Shown here: positions 6,429 through 24,866 of the stretch, piece after piece
Layout: each line of letters begins with the position of its first letter
Position numbering within the stretch: position 1 is the first letter of the stretch
Assembly: GCA_001804415.1 (NCBI GenBank)
Contig: MHGA01000008.1
Span: 2,891 to 37,132 of the forward strand
Reading direction: 5' to 3'
DNA: 34,242 nt
From: Candidatus Aquivivens invisus
GTDB taxonomy: Bacteria > Omnitrophota > Gorgyraeia > Aquiviventales > Aquiviventaceae
The notes under the pieces: model-generated
Seen by the model: only the letters and a program-made list of their open reading frames with translations
The model's database searches: none
Told to the model about the DNA's origin: nothing
Program-made: the position numbers and the translations under genes

Positions 6429-7391
6429 ATGTTGCTGACGACGTCAGTGGGGAGCTTGCCGAAACCTGACTACCTGGTGAAAGCCAGGAGTCAAGCCCGC
6501 AAGGGCGGGGTGGACCCGGCCGAGTTAAAACGCTTGGAAGAGCAATCGACGCGGGATTGGGTGGCGCGTCAGGAGGAGCTGGGCCTCGATATCCTCGTCG
6601 ACGGCGAGCAGTATCGGGGAGACATGGTCGCCTATTTCGCGGAGCAGCTTGACGGCTTCAAGCCGAGCCGCCTGGTGCGCTCCTACGGCAACCGCTACTA
6701 CCGCAAGCCGATCATCGTCAGCAAAATTCGAAGACGCCAACCCATCACGGTGGACTGGTGGCGGTTCGCGCAGGCGCTGACCACTCGGCCCGTCAAAGGG
6801 ATGCTCACCGGCCCCTACACCATCATGGACTGGTCGTTCAACGAGTACTATCCTTCTCGTCGGGCCACGGCGCTCGCCGTCGCCGAGATCATCCACGGGG
6901 AAGCGAGGGACCTGGAGCGCGCCGGCGCGCAGTACATCCAGATCGATGAACCGGCGATCTCCACGCGTCTGGATGAGATTGAGTTGGCCATTGAGGCGCT
7001 TGGGGTGGTGACCAAAGGGCTGCGCGCGAAGACCATCACGCACATCTGCTACGGAAATTTCCAGGCCCTCTCGCCCAAGCTGAACGCCCTACCGGTGGAT
7101 CAGATTGATCTGGAGTTTGCGAACCGGAAATTCGAGCTGCTGGAGGCCTTCAAGCATCTGCGCTTGCGCAAGGAGGTGGGGCTCGGGGTGGTGGACGTGC
7201 ACAGCCATCGCATCGAATCGCGCGAGGAGGTCGTGGCGAATTTGAAGAAAGCCCTGAAGGTGTTCAAGCCGGAGCAGATCTACGTCGACCCCGATTGCGG
7301 CCTGAAGACCCGCACGCCGGAGGAGGCGCTCGGCAAGCTGCGCGCCGTCGTCGAGGCGACGCGCGCCGTGCGGGAAGAGCTTTTAAACTGA
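6429..7391 (+). CDS. Core-MetE-type methionine synthase (zinc barrel)
   Basis: This is a 320-residue single-barrel homologue of the catalytic C-terminal half of MetE. The zinc ligands are all visible: His205 and Cys207 in 'THICYGNF', Glu229 in 'DLEFANR', and Cys290 in 'VDPDCGLKTR'. 'VQIDEPAIS'-like and 'VVDVHSHRIES' blocks match the C-terminal MetE barrel. It should methylate homocysteine to methionine. Known core-MetE proteins take methyl groups from corrinoid carriers rather than folate, and which donor is used here cannot be read from sequence. ATG 6429 was chosen because AGAGGAG lies 6 bases upstream; the frame is open 28 codons earlier, but those are octamer repeats. It sits in tandem with the zinc-site-deficient paralogue. 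Confidence 0.85.
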   Translation: MLLTTSVGSLPKPDYLVKARSQARKGGVDPAELKRLEEQSTRDWVARQEELGLDILVDGEQYRGDMVAYFAEQLDGFKPSRLVRSYGNRYYRKPIIVSKIRRRQPITVDWWRFAQALTTRPVKGMLTGPYTIMDWSFNEYYPSRRATALAVAEIIHGEARDLERAGAQYIQIDEPAISTRLDEIELAIEALGVVTKGLRAKTITHICYGNFQALSPKLNALPVDQIDLEFANRKFELLEAFKHLRLRKEVGLGVVDVHSHRIESREEVVANLKKALKVFKPEQIYVDPDCGLKTRTPEEALGKLRAVVEATRAVREELLN

Positions 7392-23813: not shown

Positions 23814-23843
23814 TTGACGCGGCCGCAAGGGATCAGGTATGGT
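23814..23843 (+). promoter_or_regulatory. Candidate sigma-70 promoter for structured leader/ncRNA
   Basis: TTGACG (23814-23819) and TATGGT (23838-23843) with an 18-base spacer, 18 bases after the hpf stop. No coding gene starts until 24166, so it would drive about 300 bases of structured RNA first. Confidence 0.5.
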
Positions 23844-23849
23844 TTAAAT

Positions 23850-24146
23850 CAACGTAAGCGTACCGAACGGTTGTTCGTCTTTTTGACATTCTCGAGAAAG
23901 GCAAATCCGCCGCGAGGCGGAGACGCCCTGCATGCTTTGCGGAGCAAAGCAAGCTTGCGGGGCCCCACAGGACTGTTTCGCGAAGCGAAACATGTGGGGC
24001 AAAGCCACAAGCGCTTCGAAGCCCCGCCATAAAAATGGCGGGGCGAAGAAGGCGGTTGAGCTGCCGAAAGAATGCACGACGCAATTCATCATTCGGATTT
24101 CGTCACACGGCACCTCCGCGCACAGCGGGGGTGCCGATTGTTTTTG
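23850..24146 (+). ncRNA. Candidate structured RNA or long leader of stacked hairpins
   Basis: No convincing reading frame exists here, but the stretch is packed with perfect stems. These are CCGCC-GCGA-GGCGG (23907-23920, a GNRA loop), a 7-pair hairpin at 23934-23950, an 8-pair outer stem (23962-23969 with 23993-24000) enclosing an 8-pair hairpin (23974-23992), and a 10-pair hairpin with AAAA loop (24021-24044). A promoter-like pair lies at its 5' end and a terminator-like hairpin at its 3' end. It could be a regulatory RNA or an attenuating leader for the two genes at 24166-24866. No known RNA family is recognised. Confidence 0.5.
24108..24146 (+). terminator. Intrinsic terminator or attenuator
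   Basis: CGGCACC (24108-24114) pairs with GGTGCCG (24130-24136). An inner CCGC/GCGG (24116-24119 with 24125-24128) completes the stem, and a T-rich run TTGTTTTT (24138-24145) follows. It ends 20 bases before the next start codon. Confidence 0.65.
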
Positions 24147-24165: not shown

Positions 24166-24540
24166 ATGGATGAGTCCCGGTGGATGCTCTTCTGCCTGGC
24201 GGTTCTGGCGCTGTGCGGCGTGGTGGTGACGGGTCTGGCGCTGTCGCTGATGGGGGAGGTTCGTCGGACCTTAGGGTGCTGGCAGGCCATGGCGACCGAG
24301 TGTCAGGCGACGGCGAAAGACGCGCGGCGAATGCTGCATCGCGTCCACCGTCTGCTGACCGCCGGGGATCACATCGTCGCGCAGGTGGAGGAGACGGTGC
24401 ACCGTGTCTGTGTGGCCGCAGAGGATGTGACCGGCCGCGTGCTCGGCGTGAGGGATCGACTTCAGGCGTTTGTCACTCGTCTTCGCGGAAATCACCGGAC
24501 GGGAGCGGGTTCTCGTCCAACCAACAGGAGGGCAGGATGA
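24166..24540 (+). CDS. Small single-pass membrane protein, DUF948-like
   Basis: This 124-residue protein has one N-terminal transmembrane helix (about residues 7-29, 'LFCLAVLALCGVVVTGLALS'), then a long helical region with regular hydrophobic spacing and a basic, flexible tail. This layout matches DUF948-type proteins, which often stand next to YtxH-type genes, as here. GGAGG (24153-24157) precedes the start. It overlaps the YtxH-like gene by ATGA. Function unknown, probably membrane- or stress-linked. Confidence 0.7.
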   Translation: MDESRWMLFCLAVLALCGVVVTGLALSLMGEVRRTLGCWQAMATECQATAKDARRMLHRVHRLLTAGDHIVAQVEETVHRVCVAAEDVTGRVLGVRDRLQAFVTRLRGNHRTGAGSRPTNRRAG

Positions 24541-24866
24541 AAGAGGGTAAGCCGATCGAGGTTCGTCGGGGCAGCGGGCGGGGCCGCGTCCTCGGGGCGT
24601 TTGTCATCGGAGCCACGGCGGGGAGCGCGCTGGCCTTATTGTTTGCTCCGGCTTCGGGTCGGGTGACCCGCAAGCGGATTGGGTTGAAGCTCCGCGCAAT
24701 CCAACGGGACACGGTGCGCCACCTGGGGCAGACGACGCGGCTGCTGGCGAGGAAGGCTGATACCCTGCGCGAGGCCGCCACGAAGAAACTCTCCAACGCC
24801 CGCGAGTGGGTCGTGGAGCATGTGGCGAACGGCCATCCGCGACGGCCGGTCCATCATCACGCGTAA
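24537..24866 (+). CDS. YtxH-like small membrane protein
   Basis: This 109-residue protein has a basic N-terminus, the YtxH-type segment 'GAFVIGATAGSALALLFAP' followed by 'ASGRVTRKRI', and a basic helical C-terminal half ending in a histidine-rich tail. YtxH/GvpP-type proteins are general-stress or envelope proteins of unclear function. The start overlaps the upstream gene by ATGA. A strong terminator follows 31 bases after the stop. Confidence 0.75.
   Translation: MKEGKPIEVRRGSGRGRVLGAFVIGATAGSALALLFAPASGRVTRKRIGLKLRAIQRDTVRHLGQTTRLLARKADTLREAATKKLSNAREWVVEHVANGHPRRPVHHHA

Follow-up and report, generated by a model that had tools for sequence, protein, structure and literature searches.

The window, a stretch of 34,242 nucleotides from Candidatus Aquivivens invisus (contig MHGA01000008.1), carries a c-di-GMP-I (GEMM-I) riboswitch between a promoter-like site and an intrinsic terminator, followed by a gene for a small membrane protein and a gene of the YtxH family (Table 1).

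Table 1. Features of the riboswitch unit and of the genes behind it (window positions; residue numbers as in Vc2)
Feature	Position	Strand	Evidence and remarks
Promoter-like -35/-10, TTGACG, N18, TATGGT	23814-23843	+	consensus scan
c-di-GMP-I (GEMM-I) riboswitch	23887-24074	+	between promoter-like site and terminator
Aptamer P1, 5' strand, CATTCT	23887-23892	+	pairs with AGAATG (24069-24074); P1 sequence common to seven orthologous loci
G20-G21-C22	23900-23902	+	RF03167 alignment; unchanged in all 43 doublet aptamers
P2 helix with GNRA tetraloop GCGA	23906-23921	+	RF03167 alignment; 6/6 pairs covary in 43 sequences
GACG, holding C44 and G45 (G45 = 23925)	23922-23925	+	insertion point directly 3'
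Hairpin A, 15 bp, 3'-side bulge AGCT	23926-23962 (G000:C8:26816-26852)	+	folding; hit of R2, the model of the dispersed hairpin
Hairpin B, 15 bp, 5'-side bulge GGAC, inverted relative of A	23963-23999 (G000:C8:26853-26889)	+	folding; R2
C46-A47-A48-A49 and GCCAC (J2/3), where the aptamer resumes	24000-24008	+	C46 at 24000, A47 at 24001; CAAAGCCAC retained; C46, A47 and A48 invariant in 43
P3 region with extra hairpin 24021-24044	24009-24062	+	most diverged aptamer part in alignment with orthologs
GCCGAAAGAATG, J3/1 and P1 3' strand	24063-24074	+	same or close variants in orthologs
Intrinsic terminator, 12 bp and T-rich tail	24108-24145 (stem 24108-24136)	+	scan; stem -26.0 kcal/mol
Downstream gene 1, small membrane protein, DUF948-like (below cut-off)	24166-24540	+	PF06103, E = 0.087
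Downstream gene 2, YtxH family protein	24537-24866	+	PF12732, E = 8.9e-12

Layout of the unit upstream of the YtxH gene

The promoter-like site, the train of strong hairpins and the terminator that the initial annotation had placed within 23814-24146 were all recovered, by scanning and by folding against shuffled sequences. The folding energy of 23850-24146 is -143.3 kcal/mol (z = -7.3), a value equalled by none of 200 shuffles, and the stems present are the GNRA-capped P2, hairpin A, the nested hairpin B, the hairpin in the P3 region and the terminator. The region had also been described as lacking a reading frame, and indeed only mechanical ORFs extend over it; from one related locus to the next the hairpins are entirely different, and this speaks against coding. 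The stems are not, however, all of different sequence as had been thought, since A and B represent one palindrome in two nearly identical, mutually inverted copies, B matching the reverse complement of A over 37 columns without a gap.

The unit has counterparts in relatives. The ortholog in G011 carries TTGACG-N18-TAGACT at the position equivalent to the promoter, its counterpart of downstream gene 1 matches PF06103 with E = 0.0032, and several orthologs also have a terminator-like hairpin 3' of the aptamer. In related genera the riboswitch is kept before YtxH, with a terminator preceding the gene in most cases, in agreement with the earlier proposal of an attenuating leader of the DUF948/YtxH genes. 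The suggested association with the hibernation gene hpf was not upheld: hpf is a separate, different upstream neighbor, and it is not adjacent in G011, where the gene preceding the riboswitch-YtxH unit is an unrelated one. A leader of hpf is thereby ruled out.

A c-di-GMP-I aptamer interrupted between G45 and C46

In a sensitive scan, the best and only meaningful Rfam match was RF03167 (c-di-GMP-I-GGC, E = 7.6e-5), with both ends of the model matched and a long insert between them, around which the match splits exactly. The default scan of the window at gathering thresholds returned tRNAs only, with no match at the riboswitch. The window copy scores 28.3 bits against a gathering threshold of 59 for RF03167 and 29.9 against 35 for RF01051, and it falls under both cut-offs because two hairpins sit between G45 and C46; insert-free relatives, including the G011 ortholog, exceed the cut-off. 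RF01051 has 14 matches at E<=10 in the window genome, including the weak one here; two of the 14 reach or exceed the cut-off. Across the 27 genomes of the window's family, its matches at E<=0.1 number 345.

The GNRA-capped P2 together with G20, C22, C44, G45, A47 and A48 is present within 23900-24002, the closing helix P1 is formed by CATTCT/AGAATG, and the 3' GCC of the C92 region is found in GCCGAA at 24063. In c-di-GMP-I riboswitches, C22-G45 is a P2 pair, A47 stacks with both ligand guanines, and the ligand is recognised by G20, C92, A47 and A48 (PMC3764141). As to P3 with its tetraloop receptor and bulged G83, this region is enlarged in the window copy and aligns poorly with the orthologs; with the additional hairpin in its P3, this copy could be a decaying riboswitch. 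At the level of sequence, these comparisons establish the identity of the window copy as a c-di-GMP-I riboswitch and the site of its insert. Six GGDEF domains are encoded by the window genome, which makes c-di-GMP a plausible ligand, and the window copy would be expected to bind it.

Hairpins A and B lie end to end between G45 and C46, adjoining the pocket residue A47, with zero unpaired bases between them or at their borders. With the G21-C46 pair taken from the structure line of RF03167, the predicted topology is a perfect four-way junction of G21-C46 (P1-proximal), P2, A and B, and the three-dimensional fold of the junction is an inference. The free minimum-energy fold (-137.7) is without P1, and forcing P1 and the junction costs 11 kcal/mol in a calculation that holds neither tertiary contacts nor ligand. 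A kissing interaction between the bulges of A and B fits copies C1 (AGCC/GGTT) and C4 (AGCT/GGCT), not the window copy or C27, and was dropped.

The window copy thus resembles other c-di-GMP-I members (GEMM-I; RF01051, RF03167) in GGCAAA, P2 with its GNRA loop, GACG, CAAAGCCAC and P1, as well as in its place before an envelope gene with a terminator downstream, and differs from them in the zero-linker hairpin pair at G45/C46, the sub-threshold Rfam score and the enlarged, diverged P3. The earlier idea of an undescribed structured RNA therefore fails for the core, which is of a known class, and holds for the two-hairpin four-way-junction form, which appears undescribed. In the open-access literature searched, there was no description of such a c-di-GMP riboswitch, nor of riboswitches in Omnitrophota. 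The Mn2+ yybP-ykoY riboswitch is likewise built on a four-way junction as an architectural element (PMC6754395); there the junction is intrinsic to the class, whereas in the present case it is an addition, the Vc2 reference of the class consisting of P1, P2 and P3.

Distribution and covariation of the two-hairpin insert

Orthologous riboswitches were recognised by P1 (TTGACATTCTCGA...GCCGAAAGAATG or close variants) and by their place before the YtxH gene. The riboswitch stands there without an insert in at least five genomes (G011, G018, G023, G021 and G002, the last plain and with a partly different P1), whereas G007, G006 and G025 have a pair of hairpins there whose sequences are unrelated; the doublets of G006 and G025 are one nucleotide out of register, and in both a further hairpin pair lies upstream of GGC. 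In a relative with nearly the same P2 (L073, G019), the empty site reads GACGCAAAGCC. Orthologous YtxH loci carry either zero or two hairpins, and the doublet is, to judge from these orthologs, labile in the window's family.

R1, a covariance model built for the doublet, was searched in the window's family and in a 293-genome sample of the class, and matched in the family and in many other families of the class; in all 13 non-family loci read, GACG (or GGCG) and CAAA enclose two hairpins. As R1 itself models two hairpins, patterns fixing only the aptamer flanks were used next. Among 80 loci listed from a pattern search of 84,980 GTDB species genomes, at least 31 have an intact P2 and a true insert, and 29 of these 31 fold as exactly two hairpins (28 from Omnitrophota and one from Elusimicrobia, among the matches listed); the remaining two, one of Oscillospiraceae and one of Chloroflexi, seem to have matched by chance. 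Most of the listed matches from other phyla are c-di-GMP-I aptamers, either plain or in tandem, or else lack P2 and match by chance. Tandem, closely spaced c-di-GMP-I aptamers were seen in Acetothermia/Bipolaricaulota records (L236, L245, L247, L248, L267, L281 and L301).

A second pattern, restricted to inserts of 14-44 nt, the range expected for single hairpins, gave nine matches in 384 class genomes, and all nine proved by inspection to be doublets, some of the short ones having minimal arms (e.g. UCCGAAAGGA and GCACGAAAGUGC). A single-hairpin insert was found neither among the listed matches from the 84,980 genomes nor among these nine. To judge from these loci, the two-hairpin form is a recurring c-di-GMP-I architecture in the uncultured phylum Omnitrophota.

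Inserts pooled from all sources, loci drawn with the doublet model R1 included, fold as two hairpins in 59 of 59 cases, with a mean energy z of -5.1, and in 44 of the 59 the two hairpins span the whole insert, leaving no exterior base unpaired. After dinucleotide shuffling, 41% of the inserts gave two hairpins, 51% one, and 0.5% two without an unpaired base. In all 43 trimmed doublet aptamers, G20, G21, C22, C44, G45, C46, A47 and A48 are invariant. Covariation, an early proposal for checking the structure, is present in these 43 sequences: two-sided changes occur in nine of the ten basal pairs (A 5/5, B 4/5), with consensus UCCCG/CGGGA for A and CCCCG/CGGGG for B and with compensatory changes, and the covariation score is 0.754 as compared with 0.190 for shuffled and at most 0.161 for slid partners, it being understood that palindrome symmetry can persist through DNA-level correction without RNA selection. 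In the same alignment 97.5% of cells are paired, a percentage partly built in, as each sequence was folded to place the borders of its hairpins. Both the doublet rule and the covariation are shown by these sequence comparisons.

The dispersed palindrome and the competing explanations

The A and B arms are, within the window genome, copies of a dispersed palindrome. R2, which models the single hairpin and was trained on c-di-GMP-I, cobalamin and intron copies, matched 25 distinct places in this genome at E<=0.01 and had matches in 15 of the 27 family genomes. The earlier suspicion of scattered REP copies is correct in that hairpin copies occur genome-wide, but more than half of the places found (14 of 25) lie inside structured RNAs: c-di-GMP-I (nine), RNase P RNA (two), and a cobalamin riboswitch, a Moco riboswitch and a group I intron (one each). 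The RNase P and Moco copies are independent finds; the c-di-GMP-I, cobalamin and intron copies are not, because R2 was trained on them. In the RNase P RNA of the window genome (G000:C44:16778-16992; L176, L193), the RF00010 match extends over 463 nt and holds two copies. The intron (L095 6397-6679, G000:C12) has tRNA-like sequence on both sides and palindrome copies at 6489-6535 and 6671-6707, and one peripheral copy each lies in the cobalamin (L097 17497-17644, G000:C14) and Moco (G000:C22:37796, L190) riboswitches. Hairpins are nested in hairpins in some c-di-GMP-I copies (C1, C4), and hairpin pairs occur at other aptamer positions, namely J1/2 just before GGC and the P2 5' strand at C44 (G000:C16:19181-19330, two copies in G000:C19, G000:C44:38487, G006:C12 and G025:C12).

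REP/BIME sequences are dispersed bacterial palindromes, short, imperfect and bulged, arranged in inverted pairs and present in many copies per genome. The A/B unit shares all of these properties; unlike them, it is concentrated within structured RNAs, and the window genome (93% complete) has no match to the Y1 (RAYT-type) transposase domain PF01797, on which ground RAYT-driven mobility in this genome was rejected. PF01797 matches were obtained in 19 of the 27 family genomes. The hairpins themselves may be mobile. Mitochondrial double-hairpin elements also consist of hairpins scattered through the genome in a doublet format, whereas the window doublet is bacterial, occupies one defined aptamer site and has covarying basal pairs. 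Such double-hairpin or hairpin-forming elements of mitochondrial genomes are named, for example, in PMC4478555 and PMC2800124.

In six relatives, long open frames with a divergent Y1 (IS200-like, PF01797) domain are preceded, at a distance of a few hundred bases and in the same direction, by c-di-GMP-I riboswitches (G020:C13:42436-43157, G007:C4:37985-38733, G013:C42:11249-12073, G026:C108:7317-8076, G010:C7:1423-2179 and G005:C37:19618-20299). Control of transposase-like proteins by c-di-GMP is possible there.

We consider it likely that the window copy is a transcription-attenuating c-di-GMP-I riboswitch of the DUF948-like/YtxH envelope operon, in which a linker-free A/B insert creates a four-way junction and the sequence of the ligand pocket is intact. 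Hairpins A and B would have been inserted between the pairs C22-G45 and G21-C46, leaving that sequence untouched. Most likely, c-di-GMP closes the aptamer, with P1 formed and 24063-24066 sequestered, and this closure would decide whether the terminator forms at 24108; the arms would, in the reading we prefer, be a rigid add-on stabilising or spacing the junction. UGCCG (24062-24066) can pair with the terminator 5' arm CGGCA (24108-24112) in a duplex of -14.5 kcal/mol. The two segments are a possible antiterminator, and sequestration of the 3' segment by the ligand would allow the terminator to form, so that the switching direction is probably OFF. In other copies (e.g. C27) the terminator overlaps the aptamer 3' end, which would make them ON switches, and the direction may therefore differ between copies. 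The window copy would in any case be expected to act by attenuation.

The doublet might instead have no role, being a pair of selfish palindromes, REP/BIME-like or double-hairpin-like, at a fixed site that is simply a tolerated insertion point. This notion draws on the dispersal of the unit over 25 places and 15 of 27 family genomes, its copies in RNase P, intron, cobalamin and Moco RNAs, the alternation of orthologs between an empty site and a hairpin pair unrelated in sequence, the inverted relationship of A and B, and the doublets elsewhere in the window-genome GEMM copies C16, C19 and C44. However, at least ten families show the same site and two-hairpin form, with hairpins whose sequences have no relation to the palindrome, A and B have a basal-pair consensus with compensatory changes, and no single-hairpin insert appeared among the listed pattern matches; we therefore regard it as a serious but rather doubtful alternative. 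REP insertion in its pure form is insufficient, given the unrelated hairpin pairs at this site in other families.

That the bulged arms form a second sensing or protein-binding domain, binding another ligand or a protein and gating the aptamer as in a composite riboswitch, seems improbable to us: the insertion point adjoins A47, which stacks with the ligand guanines (PMC3764141), and A and B have asymmetric bulges of similar sequence, but the arm interiors are unconserved between families, and the minimal arms leave little space for a binding site. Hardly credible is a new structured RNA unlike known riboswitches, for example a small RNA between promoter and terminator; it would fit the lack of a match at gathering threshold in the default scan, but is contradicted by the RF03167 and RF01051 matches, the empty-site orthologs and the invariant aptamer residues, and a novel RNA class is ruled out by the RF03167 match and those orthologs.

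Returning to the attenuating riboswitch, we tentatively propose, at a little below even confidence, a wider picture in which Omnitrophota possess a distinct four-way-junction c-di-GMP-I form and, in some genomes, a mobile double-hairpin element preferring structured RNAs such as riboswitches, RNase P RNA and group I introns, the junction being a site at which whole doublets are gained, exchanged or lost with the aptamer unbroken. This would show how large structural modules can be added to a compact aptamer next to the ligand pocket, at a single exact base-pair step, with the binding residues kept, and apparently by hairpin pairs only. As the window copy is missed by Rfam thresholds and similar copies score low, the extent of c-di-GMP regulation in Omnitrophota is probably underestimated. 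That one palindrome is concentrated in several structured RNAs unrelated to one another suggests hairpin insertion as a growth route for bacterial RNAs, and the genomes of Omnitrophota make RNA growth by this route testable.
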